Below are positions 18,134 to 33,106 of a stretch of DNA of 57,468 nt, piece after piece. Within the stretch, counting starts at the first letter, position 1. Each line of letters opens with the position of its first letter. The position numbers and the translations under genes were made by a program. This DNA comes from Gemmatimonadota bacterium (GTDB lineage: Bacteria > Gemmatimonadota > Gemmatimonadetes > Longimicrobiales > Gaopeijiaceae). The stretch lies in the NCBI GenBank assembly GCA_015664885.1, contig DQPL01000020.1, positions 1 to 57,468 of the forward strand. The letters are read 5' to 3'. Below the pieces are notes generated by a model, which was not told the DNA's origin, searched no databases, and was given only the letters and a program-made list of their open reading frames with translations.

Positions 18134-19843
18134 CTAGTCGCTGCCGTCGATCCGGGCCGGACCTTCGGAGGCGAGTAGGCCACCGGGATTCATGATTCCA
18201 TCCGGGTCGAGCGACTCTTTGAGCTGACGAAGGGACGCTAACCCCCGTTCCGATAGCTCACGCTCAATCCAAGGCCGATGCTCGTAGCCGACGCCGTGGT
18301 GGTGTGACAGGGCACCACCGCCGCTCACGAACGTCTCGGTCGCGACCCGCTTGATCTCGGAGTACTGCTCGATCGCCTCTTCTGGTGTCGAACCCTCCCG
18401 ACAACGGACGGCGATGGTGTAGTAGAGGCAGGCGCCCGTCTCGTAGAGATGTGAGATGTGGCTGCCGATGTAACCGTGGAACCCTGTCACGTCACCTATG
18501 ACCCGGCGCAGCGCCTCGTTGCTCGTCTCATACAACCGCATGAGGTTGGACCACACCGTGGATGTCTCGAACGAGTCGGCGATCGCGCCGTAATCCATCA
18601 TGAAGTCACGCAAGTAGGGGACATCGTAGCGGGACTCCTTCCACGACTCCCCTGGACTCGCGCCGAGATCGAACGTCCGGTGCTTCTTGAAGATCGCCAT
18701 CGCGCCTCGGCGCAGTTCTAGAGTCAACTGTCTGGGACCCTCGAACGCCAGGACCAGCGCCGCCGGACGACCGTATCCGCGCGCTTTGAGCAGCTTTTTT
18801 GCGGGACCCTCGATCCAACGCTGAAAGCCGGTCGCAGGGTGCTTCGCCGCGAACATGAACTCGGTCTCAGCTTCGTCGCTCAGACGCGCCAGGCTAGGCA
18901 TATAGCCGCATTGAACGCACTCGTGCAACGCTGCGAATCCGTCCTGGAACGTCGGGAAAAGCAGCATGCGATAGTCTTCATACTCGGGAATCGCATGCAC
19001 GCGCATCGTGGCTCTCGTGATGACCCCGAACGTGCCCTCGCTGCCTACGAGAAGCCGATTCAGATCGGGTCCATTCGAAGCGGCAGGCAACGCTCTGGTC
19101 TCGATGACGCCGGTGGGCGTAACCACCGTCATGCCGACGACCATGTCCTCGATCTTTCCGTAGACGTTGGACTGCGTGCCGGCGGAGCGCGTGGCGAGCC
19201 ATCCTCCGAGCGTGGAATAGATGTAGGAATCTGGGTGGTGGCCCAACGTCAGACCGTGGGGTGCCAACGCCTCCTCGATCTGAGGTCCGAACAACCCGGG
19301 CTCGAGATCGGCGGTTCTCGACTGGGCATCCACCGCGAGCAGCCGATTCATACGGCGCATGTCGAGGGTGATGCCGGGCCGTGAATCGTGCGCAGTCCGC
19401 TCGACGCAACCGGCTACATTCGTGCCGCCCCCGAAAGGAACGAGAGTCGCGCCGTGCTGTGTTGCCAGCTCAACGATCCTGACCACGTCGTCGTGTCCTC
19501 CCGGATAAACGACGAGGTCCGGGGCGGTGTCGACGATCCCCGCACGCAGCCTGGCAACGTCCCGATAGCTGCGTCCGTAACAATGAACCAGACGATCGTC
19601 GTCGTCACCTCGGACGTTGCAGTCCCCCACAACCATTCTCAGCGCGCTCGCGAGTGACTCCGTGTTCCTCGCTGGTGGCAGACGGATCTCGGAGAGGTCT
19701 ACACGGGGCCGTAGATCCGGATCATCCCCCAACTCTCCTTTCTGTCGAATCCAGGGCCAGAGGCTTGGTCGAGCATCCATGTCGTACTCGATGCCCTCAA
19801 GCCCCCAGCCCCACCACTTATGCCGATACTTGTCGTCGCTCAT
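18134..19843 (-). CDS. Alkyl-dihydroxyacetonephosphate synthase-like FAD oxidase (ether-lipid synthesis)
   Basis: A 569-residue FAD-linked protein of the alkylglycerone-phosphate synthase family, which swaps the acyl chain of acyl-DHAP for a fatty alcohol to make the ether bond. The N-terminal KWWGWG (9-14) is typical of the bacterial relatives. The FAD-binding PCMH domain contains VPFGGGTNVAG (135-145), and the active-site histidine motif HHHGVG is at 514-519. The substrate cap and the C-terminal LDPDGIMNPGGLL are also present, so it appears complete. It overlaps the upstream fatty acyl-CoA reductase gene by 26 nt, so the two are coupled. Other FAD oxidases of this class (glycolate or D-lactate oxidase) lack the triple His, which supports the AGPS call. 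Confidence 0.85.
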   Translation of the reverse strand: MSDDKYRHKWWGWGLEGIEYDMDARPSLWPWIRQKGELGDDPDLRPRVDLSEIRLPPARNTESLASALRMVVGDCNVRGDDDDRLVHCYGRSYRDVARLRAGIVDTAPDLVVYPGGHDDVVRIVELATQHGATLVPFGGGTNVAGCVERTAHDSRPGITLDMRRMNRLLAVDAQSRTADLEPGLFGPQIEEALAPHGLTLGHHPDSYIYSTLGGWLATRSAGTQSNVYGKIEDMVVGMTVVTPTGVIETRALPAASNGPDLNRLLVGSEGTFGVITRATMRVHAIPEYEDYRMLLFPTFQDGFAALHECVQCGYMPSLARLSDEAETEFMFAAKHPATGFQRWIEGPAKKLLKARGYGRPAALVLAFEGPRQLTLELRRGAMAIFKKHRTFDLGASPGESWKESRYDVPYLRDFMMDYGAIADSFETSTVWSNLMRLYETSNEALRRVIGDVTGFHGYIGSHISHLYETGACLYYTIAVRCREGSTPEEAIEQYSEIKRVATETFVSGGGALSHHHGVGYEHRPWIERELSERGLASLRQLKESLDPDGIMNPGGLLASEGPARIDGSD

Positions 19844-21470
19844 CCGAGGTCCGTTCAGCAGTCTGGCCGCGCGCAGACCTAGTATCGGCTGGTGGTCTCT
19901 GGGCGCTAGCCCGTGGATCGCCCGCCACCTTCACGAGTCCAGGCAGCCAAGCGTTCACGACGTAATCGCGCCACGCGATGACGTCGATGTCCCAGGAGAA
20001 ACGATCACTGTCGACCGGCGCCAAAGCTTTGAGCAACGCACCCGAGTTGTCGGTGTCGAACTCGGGGCTTCGCTCGACGTAAAAACCGTAGACGTCGACG
20101 AACTCCTTCAAGCGCGAGAGACCGCGCAGCCGCACCGCAGCTCGACGGGCTGGACCCTTGAGGCCCAACCATGAGAGCAGCCTCCGTAGCAACTTGAGTA
20201 GCCGGCGCGCCCTCTCGAGCCTTCCAGAAAAAACACGCGGTGGGGTCCATTTGAACCTCCGGTCCTTCCAGTTGGGAGGAGCAAGCTCGCCGCCTCCTCG
20301 CTTGTATGCTTCCCGAACAAAGGTAGACATGTCGCCGAACGTCACGGGGTTCCTCTGGGCCGTCGCGATCTGATAAACCTCGAAGTGGGTAGGATCGTCG
20401 GGTGGCGCAGACGCAAGCGTCAGATTCGTGACTAGATCACAGGGCACGAGATCGAGTTTCGTGTCAGCGTAGCCCGCGAACTCGCGAAGATTGCCATGTC
20501 CGTACTCGATGGCGATGGGGTGAAACATTCGAATTTTGTCGAACCAGCCCGGCACGGGCTCGGCGATCGTTCCCTCGATGATCGAGGGGCGTACAATCGA
20601 CAGTGGAACGGACCCGCGATCGCGAGCGAGCAGCTGCTCAGCCAACGACTTGCTGAACTGATACGCATCCCTCCAGCCGTGCTCGATGGCAACCTCGGTC
20701 CCGTACTCGATAGCGGCACGGTTGGACAGATTTCGCCGTGACCGACCGCGTGTCTGCACGATGACCGGAACGGCCCGGCCGTTCTCGCCTGGCGAGTGGT
20801 CGGGGCGCTCGAGAAAAGTGGCGGCCCGAAGCGCGGCGCACCGAGCGAGCATTTGGTCGATCTCTTCGTCGAGAGAGAATTCAGCTGCCAGCCCCCCCTT
20901 CAAGGTTCTCAGCGTATGCCCGAGGGGGATAACTCTTTCGGGGGAAAGCTCGTAGGTGGTTTCGTACACGTAGGCCGTGGACACGTGTACGAGCGGAACG
21001 TTTCCGGCGTCCTGGGCAAGCTTCAGAATACGCCGCGCGCCTAGGGCGTTCACTTGAAGCGCGCGGTCGAACTCTTCCCGGAACGAGCAGGTCGCACCGC
21101 AGTTGATGATCATGGTCACTTCGCCGGCCAACTTCTCATACGCTGCGTCGTCGAGCCCCAAGTGCTTGAGGGCCAAGTCGCCGGCAACAGCCTCGACCTT
21201 GCTGCTCATCCTGGCGTGGAAGTGGCTCTGCCACTGGCTCCGGAGACGATCGAATACCGGAGAACGGATGATCTCCCAATCGACCCGCTCGATGGCGTCC
21301 ACCGAGCGACGCGGTCGTACGAGCAGATAGACCTTTTCGACGGACGGCAGATCGCGCAGGATCTTCTCGAGAACAGACTTCCCCAACATGCCGGTAGCGC
21401 CCGTCAGGAGGATGCGCTGCCCGGCGTACCGTTCCTGCAGCGGCAAGAGTCTCTTGGCTTCCGTCGTCAT
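19818..21470 (-). CDS. Fatty acyl-CoA (or acyl-ACP) reductase, male-sterility type
   Basis: A 550-residue NADPH-dependent reductase of the FAR family, producing long-chain fatty alcohols. The Rossmann motif is TGATGMLG (23-30), the catalytic YQFSK is at 270-274, and the strand VHVSTAYV (161-168) and segment SIVRPSIIEGT fit the family. A C-terminal FAR_C-like helical part (about 400-500) is followed by a polar tail of about 30 residues that overlaps the next gene. The product is the substrate expected by the AGPS-like enzyme encoded immediately downstream, so together they form the core of an ether-lipid pathway. Acyl-DHAP synthesis would have to come from elsewhere in the genome. Confidence 0.83.
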   Translation of the reverse strand: MTTEAKRLLPLQERYAGQRILLTGATGMLGKSVLEKILRDLPSVEKVYLLVRPRRSVDAIERVDWEIIRSPVFDRLRSQWQSHFHARMSSKVEAVAGDLALKHLGLDDAAYEKLAGEVTMIINCGATCSFREEFDRALQVNALGARRILKLAQDAGNVPLVHVSTAYVYETTYELSPERVIPLGHTLRTLKGGLAAEFSLDEEIDQMLARCAALRAATFLERPDHSPGENGRAVPVIVQTRGRSRRNLSNRAAIEYGTEVAIEHGWRDAYQFSKSLAEQLLARDRGSVPLSIVRPSIIEGTIAEPVPGWFDKIRMFHPIAIEYGHGNLREFAGYADTKLDLVPCDLVTNLTLASAPPDDPTHFEVYQIATAQRNPVTFGDMSTFVREAYKRGGGELAPPNWKDRRFKWTPPRVFSGRLERARRLLKLLRRLLSWLGLKGPARRAAVRLRGLSRLKEFVDVYGFYVERSPEFDTDNSGALLKALAPVDSDRFSWDIDVIAWRDYVVNAWLPGLVKVAGDPRASAQRPPADTRSARGQTAERTSDERRQVSA

Positions 21471-29945: not shown

Positions 29946-31523
29946 TCAGTCCTTCAGAATCTCCCGAGCCGCATTGAACCCAGGCACGCCAGTGACCCCA
30001 CCGCCCGGATGGGTCCCGGCCCCACACAGGTAGAGTCCCTTCACCGGCGCACGGTACCGTGAGGCACCTGGTACCGGCCGCATGAAGAGTAGCTGGTCCA
30101 GCGTCATCTCGCCGTGGTAGATGTTGCCCTCAGCCAGCCCGAAGTCCCGCTTGAGATCAAGTGGCGTCAGCACATGCCGCGCCTCGATGAGCGATGCCAG
30201 GTTAGGCGCATACTCGGCCAGAGTCTCGACCGCCAGGTCGCCCAGCTTCGCGCTGGCCGCATCGTCCCAGGCGCCGTCCCTCAATGAATAAGGAGCGTAC
30301 TGGAAGAGGATCGACATGAGGTGCTTTCCGTCCGGCGCTACGCTGGCATCGGAAAGCGACGGGATCGAGGCTTCGAGATAGGGACGCTGCGAAATGCGGC
30401 CGTACTTGGCCGCGTCGAACGCCCGTTCGACGTACTCCAGGCTCGGGCTGATAGAAATCACGCCCTTCAGGTGATCCCCCGCGCCGGGCTGGCACGTGAA
30501 GTCCGGCAAGCCACTCAGCGCGAGGTGCACCTTAGCGCACACGCCCCGGTAGCGGATGTTGCCCATCTTGCGCGCGAACTCCGGAGTCATCTCGCTGGGC
30601 TCCATGAGCTCGAAGAAGGTGCGGCGCGGATCCGCGCTCGATACGACGCGCTGAGCACGAATCTCAGCTCGATCGACGAGCACGCCCACTGCAGTGTCGC
30701 CCTCGACCAGGATGCTTTCGACGGACGCACCCGTTCGAACCTCGGCTCCGGCCTGCTTACAGGCGGTGACCAGCGCATCCGCCAGTCGCCCAACTCCGCC
30801 GCGAACACGGCGCGTCGGCCGAATGACGCCGGCGCCGGCACCAACATGATGATGCAGCAGGGTGTACACCGTCCCGCCCGCCATCGGCCCCTGGCAGAGG
30901 CCGGTAACGGCCGACGCGGCGATAGCTCCCTTCACCAGGTCACTTTCGAACCACTCACCGAGCAGCTCGTACACCGACATCGGCAGAATCCGCATGACCT
31001 CTACCATGTCCCGCTTGCCGAGCCTGCGCAGCTTCAGGCCGAGCTTGGCGGTGGCGAACAGGTCCCCGAGGTCGTTGCCGGTCACGTCTGGGGGAGTGGA
31101 CGTCCAGGCCGCTTCCAGGAAGCTGGCAGCCTTTCCGATCAGCTCCGTGAACGGGACCCAGGCATCGGCATCTGTAGCGGAGATCTCCCGGATTGCCTCG
31201 GCCGTCTTGCGGGGGTCTCGCCAGAGCGTGAGCGGCGTGCCCCCGAGCACCGGGACGAATGCGGTGGCTTCCGAGTCGATCAGTTCGAGACCGTGACGAG
31301 CCAATCCCAGATCGTTTACCACCGTGCTGCTGAGGCCGCCGAGCCGGTGCGCGCCCGTGTCCACCTTGAAGCCCGGGAATACCTCTTCCGTCGAGGCGGC
31401 ACCCCCGACCACGTCACGCTGCTCGAGCACGAGCACCTTGTGGCCAGCCCTGGCCAGGTACGCGGCGGTGACGAGGCCGTTATGCCCTGCCCCGATGACC
31501 ACGGTGTCATAGGAGACACTCAT
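29946..31523 (-). CDS. FAD-dependent phytoene-desaturase-like oxidoreductase (PYROXD2-like), copy A
   Basis: A 525-residue flavoprotein of the phytoene desaturase/PYROXD2 group. The FAD-binding motif VVIGAGHNGLVTAAYLA (about 8-24) is followed by GGAASTEE, and the C-terminal FAD contact is LCGAGTHPGGGVTGVPG (about 502-518). The frame is open further upstream, but ATG 31523 overlaps the preceding gene's stop by one base and starts the Rossmann strand directly. It is a tandem paralogue of the next gene upstream, with many shared blocks (GIDxIxPS-type, HPGGGVTG). No carotenoid synthesis genes are nearby, so a desaturase or amine-oxidation role is open. Confidence 0.83.
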   Translation of the reverse strand: MSVSYDTVVIGAGHNGLVTAAYLARAGHKVLVLEQRDVVGGAASTEEVFPGFKVDTGAHRLGGLSSTVVNDLGLARHGLELIDSEATAFVPVLGGTPLTLWRDPRKTAEAIREISATDADAWVPFTELIGKAASFLEAAWTSTPPDVTGNDLGDLFATAKLGLKLRRLGKRDMVEVMRILPMSVYELLGEWFESDLVKGAIAASAVTGLCQGPMAGGTVYTLLHHHVGAGAGVIRPTRRVRGGVGRLADALVTACKQAGAEVRTGASVESILVEGDTAVGVLVDRAEIRAQRVVSSADPRRTFFELMEPSEMTPEFARKMGNIRYRGVCAKVHLALSGLPDFTCQPGAGDHLKGVISISPSLEYVERAFDAAKYGRISQRPYLEASIPSLSDASVAPDGKHLMSILFQYAPYSLRDGAWDDAASAKLGDLAVETLAEYAPNLASLIEARHVLTPLDLKRDFGLAEGNIYHGEMTLDQLLFMRPVPGASRYRAPVKGLYLCGAGTHPGGGVTGVPGFNAAREILKD

Positions 31524-33106
31524 CACAGTGCCTCCTTCAGGATCTTCAGTGCCGCCAAGCGCCCGGACGCTCCAGTCACACCGCCGCCGGGGTGCGTCCC
31601 CGAGCCGGCCTGGTAGTACCCCCGCACCGGCGTAGTGTAGTCGGCATGCCCCACCGTGGGCCGCATGCAAAAGAGCTGGTGCAGCGAGAGCTCGCCGTGG
31701 AAGATGTTGCCGTCCGTGAGCCCCATGTCCCGATCGATATCCCAGGGCGTCAGCACCTGCCGGTGTAGAATTGCCTCAGGAAGGTTGGGGGCGTACTGGG
31801 CGAGCGTGTCGACGACGGCATCGCCAAACGCCTCACGCTTGGTCTCGTCCCAACCGCCGCGTAGATCCGACGGAGCGTACTGCACGAAGATCGACATGAC
31901 GTGCTTGCCCGGAGGCGCCATGCCCGCATCGATCATGGAGGGCATGATGATGTCCATGTACGGACGGCTGGAGAAGTCACCGTACTTGGCCTCGTCGTAG
32001 GCGCGCTCCAGATAGTCGATGCTCGGGCTGATCGAGACCGCTCCCTTGTGCAGCGGACCCACGCCCGGCTTGCTGGTGAAGTTCGGGAGCTCGCTGAGCG
32101 ACAGATTCACCTTGCCCGACGAGCCACGAATCTTGAAGCGCTCGATGTCACGAACGAAGTCATCGGGCAGACTGTTGGCATCGACGAGGTCCAGGAACGT
32201 GCGCTTGGGATCGAGGCCCGAGACCACAACAGAAGCCGTGTACTCCCTGCCATCGTCCAGGACGACACCCGTCGCCTTTCCGTTCTTCACGGCGACCTGC
32301 GCCACTCCGGCCTCGGTAAGGATCTCGGCACCGTGCTCGCGAGCGGCGCTCGCGATCGACTCGCTCACCGAACCGGTGCCGCCTTTGACGAAGCCCCAGG
32401 CGCGCATCGCCCCGTCGATCTCTCCCATGTAGTGGTGCAGCAGCACGTATGCGGTGCCGGGCGAGCGTGGCCCGAGGAACGTGCCGATGATGCCGCTCGA
32501 CGACATCGTGGCTTTCAACGCCTCGGTCTCAAACCACTCGTCCAGATAGTCCGCCGAGCTCATGGTCATGAGCTTGTGCAGCGCATGGAACTGCTCGTGG
32601 CCGAGGCCCCGGAAGTGTTTGCCGAGCCTGAGGAATCCCATGAGGTCCTTGGGACTCATGGATGTCGGATCGGGCGGTACCATGGCGAGGATCGGCTTCA
32701 CCGCCACCGCCAGCTGATACATCAGCTTGCCGAAGTCGTCGTACGCATCGGCGTCCCGCGGAGAGTGCCGATAAATCTCGCGCCGGGTCTGATCGTGGTC
32801 CCCCCAACGCGCCAAGTAGTCGCCGTTCGGCAGCGGCGTGAAGGTGCTCTCGAGCGGCAAGATCTGTAACCCGTGCTTCGGCAGCTCGAGGTCGCGGATG
32901 ATCTCGGGCCGCAGCAGGCTCACCACGTAGGAGCACACCGAGTATTTGAAGCCGGGATTGATCTCCTCGGTGACCGCGGCACCCCCGAGCACGTGCCGCT
33001 TCTCCAGCACGAGCACCTTCTTGCGTGCGCTCGCGAGATAAGCCGCCGTGACGAGTCCGTTGTGACCGCCCCCGACGATGATCGCGTCGTATCGGCTCGC
33101 GCTCAT
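31523..33106 (-). CDS. FAD-dependent phytoene-desaturase-like oxidoreductase (PYROXD2-like), copy B
   Basis: A 527-residue paralogue of copy A. It starts with a standard FAD motif IIVGGGHNGLVTAAYLA (about 9-25), then VLEKRHVLGGAAVTEE. The mid-part contains SISPSIDYLERAYDEAKYG, shared almost unchanged with copy A, and it ends GSGTHPGGGVTGASG. It overlaps the GcvT-like gene (ATGA at 33106-33103) and the copy A gene (one base), so three genes form one operon. Two adjacent complete paralogues suggest a heteromer or two sequential oxidations. Relatives in animals are mitochondrial; bacterial function is not established. Confidence 0.83.
   Translation of the reverse strand: MSASRYDAIIVGGGHNGLVTAAYLASARKKVLVLEKRHVLGGAAVTEEINPGFKYSVCSYVVSLLRPEIIRDLELPKHGLQILPLESTFTPLPNGDYLARWGDHDQTRREIYRHSPRDADAYDDFGKLMYQLAVAVKPILAMVPPDPTSMSPKDLMGFLRLGKHFRGLGHEQFHALHKLMTMSSADYLDEWFETEALKATMSSSGIIGTFLGPRSPGTAYVLLHHYMGEIDGAMRAWGFVKGGTGSVSESIASAAREHGAEILTEAGVAQVAVKNGKATGVVLDDGREYTASVVVSGLDPKRTFLDLVDANSLPDDFVRDIERFKIRGSSGKVNLSLSELPNFTSKPGVGPLHKGAVSISPSIDYLERAYDEAKYGDFSSRPYMDIIMPSMIDAGMAPPGKHVMSIFVQYAPSDLRGGWDETKREAFGDAVVDTLAQYAPNLPEAILHRQVLTPWDIDRDMGLTDGNIFHGELSLHQLFCMRPTVGHADYTTPVRGYYQAGSGTHPGGGVTGASGRLAALKILKEAL

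Follow-up and report, generated by a model that had tools for sequence, protein, structure and literature searches.

Two overlapping genes at positions 18134-21470 of the stretch of DNA analyzed here (the window, 57,468 nucleotides, which is the entire contig C106 of the 3.96 Mb genome G000 from a Gemmatimonadota bacterium, rated 99% complete) raise the question of whether this organism makes ether lipids in the manner of animals. A preliminary description had read the pair as a fatty acyl reductase (FAR) and an AGPS-like enzyme, the synthase that places a fatty alcohol on dihydroxyacetone phosphate (DHAP), which together would form an ether-lipid module. Open reading frames, Pfam and matches to solved structures were found to agree with both the position and the identities of the two genes, and the module is backed by phylogeny, active-site residues, fold and repeated linkage of AGPS to FAR. 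We consider it highly likely that the pair is an operon encoding the initial committed reactions of alkyl-ether glycerolipid synthesis, with plasmanyl lipids and not plasmalogens as the predicted outcome. As judged from sequence, the membrane of the organism very probably contains alkyl-ether lipids like those of animals.

The deduced FAR protein matched the Pfam families NAD_binding_4 (PF07993, E 9.6e-64) and Sterile (PF03015, E 8.8e-10), both passing the cut-off, and its closest solved structure was the fatty acyl-CoA reductase 7eoz (E 5.7e-60). Along with these two domains it has the GxxGxxG and YxxxK motifs of fatty acyl-CoA reductases, and the Tyr and Lys of YxxxK were conserved in all eight AGPS-linked FARs that were aligned; an alcohol-forming (four-electron) reduction is predicted. 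The second protein carries the domains FAD_binding_4 (PF01565) and FAD-oxidase_C (PF02913). Its best solved relatives were found to be the AGPS enzymes (ADPS) of Dictyostelium (2uuu, 2e-119) and guinea pig (4bby, 1.9e-97), and the next-best family, D-lactate dehydrogenase (1e-29), trailed ADPS by about 90 orders of magnitude in E-value. An AlphaFold model of the protein (pLDDT 88.2) superposed over residues 1-557 on every listed ADPS entry (Z 40-44), while the best non-ADPS match, again a D-lactate dehydrogenase (Z 34.7), aligned only from residue 59; the model shows the ADPS fold over its full length, with the N-terminal part, absent from D-lactate dehydrogenase, included. When residues were compared by the numbering of the guinea-pig enzyme, Thr309, Arg419, Arg515, Ser527, Cys576, Tyr578 and His615-617 were found to be kept in all five members of the window AGPS clade. 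Both genes are under purifying selection, with dN/dS values against the orthologues in the congeneric genome G088 of about 0.23 (FAR) and 0.16 (AGPS). The positions of the genes and of their motifs are listed in the table.

Table. Coordinates in the window of the predicted FAR-AGPS pair and its functional motifs
Feature	Coordinates	Strand	Remarks
AGPS, predicted alkylglycerone-phosphate (alkyl-DHAP) synthase, EC 2.5.1.26	18134..19843	(-)	FAD enzyme, vanillyl-alcohol-oxidase (VAO) fold, 569 aa; second of pair
AGPS His514-His515-His516	18296..18304	(-)	guinea-pig His615-617; within HHHGVG, residues 514-519
AGPS Tyr474	18422..18424	(-)	guinea-pig Tyr578, proposed catalytic base; Tyr578Phe mutant structure in PDB, 4bca
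AGPS Arg412	18608..18610	(-)	guinea-pig Arg515; alignment
AGPS Arg320	18884..18886	(-)	guinea-pig Arg419; Arg419His mutant structure in PDB, 4bc7
Overlap, FAR stop / AGPS start	19818..19843	(-)	26 bp; equal length in congener G088
FAR, predicted long-chain fatty acyl-(CoA/ACP) reductase	19818..21470	(-)	550 aa; Rossmann reductase + C-terminal Sterile domain; first of pair
FAR catalytic Y-x-x-x-K motif, YQFSK, residues 270-274	20649..20663	(-)	motif scan
FAR NAD(P)H-binding motif, TGATGMLG, residues 23-30	21381..21404	(-)	motif scan

The preliminary description had held that a phylogeny placing the FAD protein among oxidases outside AGPS would speak against the proposal. Both the AGPS tree and the structure-library matches instead grouped the protein with proven ADPS enzymes, inside AGPS and apart from the GlcD and D-lactate dehydrogenase oxidases. 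In the tree (98 rows, LG+C20, quick search, SH-aLRT support only, with a very long outgroup branch), a branch with a support of 100 united the window AGPS with both eukaryotic ADPS sequences and a further 77 sequences from bacteria, among which 37 are linked to a FAR. The same branch left out 17 AGPS-like sequences; a gene for GlpD, the glycerol-3-phosphate dehydrogenase, adjoins 11 of these. When the side of the tree that holds the eukaryotic ADPS is termed AGPS-proper, a FAR was found within 4.5 kb of the AGPS-type gene at 37 of 79 AGPS-proper loci, against 1 of the 17 excluded ones (Fisher 0.002).

These GlpD-linked relatives bring up another reading, by which the window protein would be an AGPS-like flavoenzyme that takes part in the catabolism of glycerol or glycerol phosphate, and the neighboring FAR would serve something else. 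The GlpD-linked proteins, which come from the same phylum and from archaeal metagenome-assembled genomes (MAGs), retain HHH, Tyr578 and mostly Arg419 and Arg515, such that residues alone cannot separate the functions. However, the window AGPS stands across the fully supported branch on the side of the eukaryotic enzymes; it matches the animal enzyme at Ser527 and Cys576, positions occupied in the GlpD-linked group by Thr and mostly by Ser or Asn, respectively; and GlpD adjoins none of the 79 AGPS-proper loci. A role in glycerol catabolism thus appears highly improbable. The HHHGVG motif, which the preliminary description had taken as the mark of AGPS, is present in the window protein but is not diagnostic on its own, because most of the GlpD-linked clade keeps the HHH too; it was rejected as sufficient proof of AGPS, and the catalytic Arg/Tyr/His set is, by these alignments, necessary but not sufficient for an AGPS call. 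The GlpD-linked flavoproteins (L142, L143, L144, L147, L148, L151 and L154, as well as L039, L042 and L095) belong to the same superfamily as the window AGPS but form a clade of their own, and their neighbors are GlpD (confirmed by PF16901 in one case) and at some loci also a glycerol-type kinase, with no FAR. Three members from Euryarchaeota MAGs have Tyr in place of Arg419. Proteins of this clade are likely to have been miscalled as AGPS in surveys based on BLAST.

The arrangement of the two genes was also examined across a sample of 121 genomes of the family and 395 of the phylum. In G088, the AGPS is 82% identical to that of the window and a MoxR gene lies downstream, as in the window. The FAR-AGPS order is kept in G088 as well as in L025, L026 and L027/G062, the latter three with AGPS identities of 55-64%, such that the pair is present in five Gemmatimonadota genomes of the clade; in G054, a more distant AGPS (33% identity) is divergently paired with a FAR. 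Since the pair recurs in these genomes, shows low dN/dS and retains its 26-bp overlap, its association is not due to chance, and the two genes probably form a translationally coupled two-gene operon. FAR-type enzymes commonly supply wax esters (PMC11948995), and the FAR of the pair might likewise work mainly toward wax esters or free fatty alcohol, with AGPS taking part of the alcohol or being linked to FAR by descent only. The conserved overlap in two species and the side-by-side position of the genes in five genomes of the clade point instead to a shared purpose, and we regard the wax-ester alternative as most unlikely. Related loci were found to vary in their makeup. In L026 (3627-5954), the FAR immediately upstream of AGPS carries, as a fusion, part of an AMP-binding domain of the acyl-CoA synthetase-like kind, which recalls the FAR-ACS part of the myxobacterial protein ElbD. 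In L084 (2147-8444, Gemmatimonadota) and L090 (456-9459, Latescibacteria), the order is FAR, a protein of 657 or 685 aa, AGPS and a short-chain dehydrogenase/reductase (SDR); the 657-aa protein (U657) had no Pfam match and was seen only in these two loci, where it is a candidate for a new acyltransferase or accessory factor.

In the pathway that we propose, FAR would first reduce long-chain acyl thioesters to fatty alcohols. AGPS would then form an adduct between 1-acyl-DHAP and the flavin N5, from which the fatty acid would leave and to which the alcohol would be added to yield 1-O-alkyl-DHAP; such a mechanism is established for AGPS (PMC3509576), and the same acyl-for-alcohol exchange is the predicted activity of the window enzyme. 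Reduction of alkyl-DHAP to alkyl-glycerol-3-phosphate, sn-2 acylation and addition of a headgroup would be performed by other enzymes, giving plasmanyl (alkyl-acyl) phospholipids.

Several observations weigh against this proposal. AGPS relatives were found in only 4 of the 121 family genomes and 17 of the 395 phylum genomes (9 AGPS-proper, a count fixed from neighbors and tree after the tree was seen, and 8 in the other, mostly GlpD-linked group); AGPS is rare in the family and is therefore not a core membrane trait. The preliminary description had suggested looking for a DHAP acyltransferase, and no GNPAT/GPAT_C (PF19277) protein was found in the 99% complete genome, with an E. coli control positive. 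The supply of acyl-DHAP is thus unexplained, the sole candidates found for making it being four small PlsC-like (PF01553) proteins, encoded on contigs C53, C130, C67 and C23. One of these, PlsC67, whose gene adjoins that of a DegT aminotransferase, first drew attention through proteins of 32-34% identity that adjoin AGPS in Acidobacteria; it was rejected as a dedicated DHAP acyltransferase for want of specificity, since relatives occur in 18 of the 395 phylum genomes and only G000 and G088 among them have AGPS. The likeness to the myxobacterial route drawn in the preliminary description holds in that Myxococcus xanthus has an AGPS-FAR operon, but that organism relies mainly on ElbD, and when its AGPS (MXAN_1676) was lost, ether lipids fell only slightly (PMC9131029). 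In addition, Pontiella carries elbD yet ether lipids were undetected (PMC11868695), so that gene presence is no proof of the lipid, and a search of open-access papers turned up no report of ether lipids from Gemmatimonadota.

The preliminary description had predicted alkyl-ether or plasmalogen-like lipids; the former are the best-supported product, while the latter are not supported. The aerobic plasmalogen pathway uses a desaturase of the CarF/PEDS1 family, and G000 encodes a single Lipid_desat (PF10520) protein on contig C117 (8297-8977; L016, L017), through which the pathway could run on to plasmalogens. This protein matches PF10520 strongly (E 2.1e-45) and belongs to a family found in only 2 of the 121 family genomes; it is 39-41% identical to CarF of Myxococcus and Comamonas and retains both PFREHH and the aspartate of DT. 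However, alignment placed a Tyr opposite His113 of CarF, a residue that is essential in CarF and whose mutation in the mouse enzyme strongly reduced activity (PMC9131029), and this His is kept in all six CarF-family proteins of other AGPS-carrying genomes (Myxococcus, a record labelled Comamonas, Chlamydiae, two Spirochaetota and Legionella). The C117 protein reached 155 bits with NF045946, for which the equivalog cut-off is 500 bits, and its gene follows genes resembling those of menaquinone synthesis. Nor does the desaturase track with AGPS: G088 has the FAR-AGPS pair and no PF10520 desaturase, while G090, of the same family, has a Tyr-form desaturase (71% identical to the C117 protein) and no AGPS. 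Because of the His-to-Tyr change, the low NF045946 score and this mismatch with AGPS, plasmanyl rather than plasmenyl lipids are predicted; plasmalogen formation in this organism is doubtful and its occurrence by way of the C117 protein very unlikely. The prediction of plasmalogens from the presence of PF10520 alone was rejected, on account of the His-to-Tyr change and the equivalog cut-off. The Tyr-form desaturases of G000 and G090 possibly act on a different substrate. In other genomes, the diagnostic His accompanies AGPS: in a Legionella MAG (L040, 4603-10637), a His-form CarF-family desaturase is followed by AGPS, an SDR, an HMG-CoA reductase-like protein and a PlsC-like acyltransferase, making this locus a candidate cluster for plasmalogen synthesis in a lineage other than myxobacteria and Leptospira; and a Chlamydiae MAG (L114, with its AGPS in L037) also encodes a His-form desaturase.

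An unexpected association of AGPS with one subfamily of DegT aminotransferases points to a possible further branch of the pathway. This subfamily was detected in 5 of the 9 AGPS-proper genomes compared with 1 of the 386 others of the phylum sample (Fisher 1e-8, although the genomes are not phylogenetically independent, G000 and G088 being of one genus). DegT adjoins AGPS at six loci in two phyla, namely L025, L026 and L027 of the window clade, L088 and L153, which fall elsewhere in the AGPS tree, and L036 from Verrucomicrobia; its pyridoxal phosphate lysine (SFGxxK) is conserved, and at L026 and L027 DegT has a GNAT-type acyltransferase as a neighbor. The AGPS product could accordingly be aminated by DegT at its C2 ketone instead of being reduced, after which an N-acyltransferase would complete a 2-amino, ceramide-like ether lipid; since alkyl-DHAP carries a free ketone, both of these reactions are chemically conceivable. 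Countering this, DegT occurs without AGPS in G113 and G055, and the known substrates of DegT enzymes are mostly keto-sugars. In G000 itself, the degT gene is on another contig (C67:13872-15074) within an operon for fatty acid synthesis (C67:13872-20804; L020 3873-10804; L156, L157) that encodes an SDR, KASIII, FabA, FabZ, FabF, an acyl carrier protein (ACP), the PlsC-like acyltransferase and DegT, with a matching operon in G088. We found no open-access paper that links DegT to AGPS, and on balance consider the amino-ether product unlikely; if it were made, AGPS would feed a new class of amino-ether lipids in which the designs of ether lipids and sphingolipid-like lipids merge. Elsewhere in the window (29946-33106), two tandem overlapping genes encode FAD proteins of the amino-oxidase fold (PF01593), each with an N-terminal dinucleotide-binding motif.

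Most of what is known about aerobic ether-lipid synthesis based on DHAP comes from eukaryotes and myxobacteria. The Gemmatimonadota FAR-AGPS operon, with an AGPS from a clade distinct from the myxobacterial one, may offer a minimal bacterial system for expression. FAR linkage and clade, not HHHGVG, would serve as the genomic marker to tell real AGPS from its glycerol-metabolism look-alikes. This marker may be useful for environmental surveys, as AGPS homologues have been counted by BLAST in many phyla (PMC11868695) and at least one survey called AGPS by BLAST alone.

When set against known systems, the window pair is closest in layout to the MXAN_1676-1675(-1674) operon of M. xanthus, in which AGPS and a FAR fused to a GNPAT-like domain were proposed to synthesize alkyl-ethers (PMC9131029), and to the related locus L069 of Myxococcus sp. 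CA023; all place AGPS beside FAR in a bacterial operon. In M. xanthus, however, AGPS comes first and FAR is the GNPAT-like fusion, whereas in the window FAR comes first, ends in the Sterile domain and has FAR domains only, with no acyltransferase domain; the window AGPS is 34% identical to the L069 protein and falls in another clade. ElbD of M. xanthus, a single multidomain FAR-ACS-ACP-acyltransferase protein (PMC9131029), likewise uses a FAR domain to feed ether lipids, but the window FAR is free-standing. The eukaryotic peroxisomal AGPS enzymes (4bby, 2uuu), which partner with FAR1 and GNPAT or with FARAT, a Dictyostelium fusion of FAR with DHAP acyltransferase (PMC7375469), share with the window enzyme the active-site residues, the full-length fold, the VAO family and a FAR partner; they differ in sequence (34-38% identity) and in having a peroxisome, and no acyltransferase of the GNPAT or FARAT type was found in G000. 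Thus, while the linkage of FAR to AGPS is itself known, the phylum, the unfused full-length FAR without GNPAT and the association with DegT are new, and the pair also differs from the known ones in AGPS clade and gene order.

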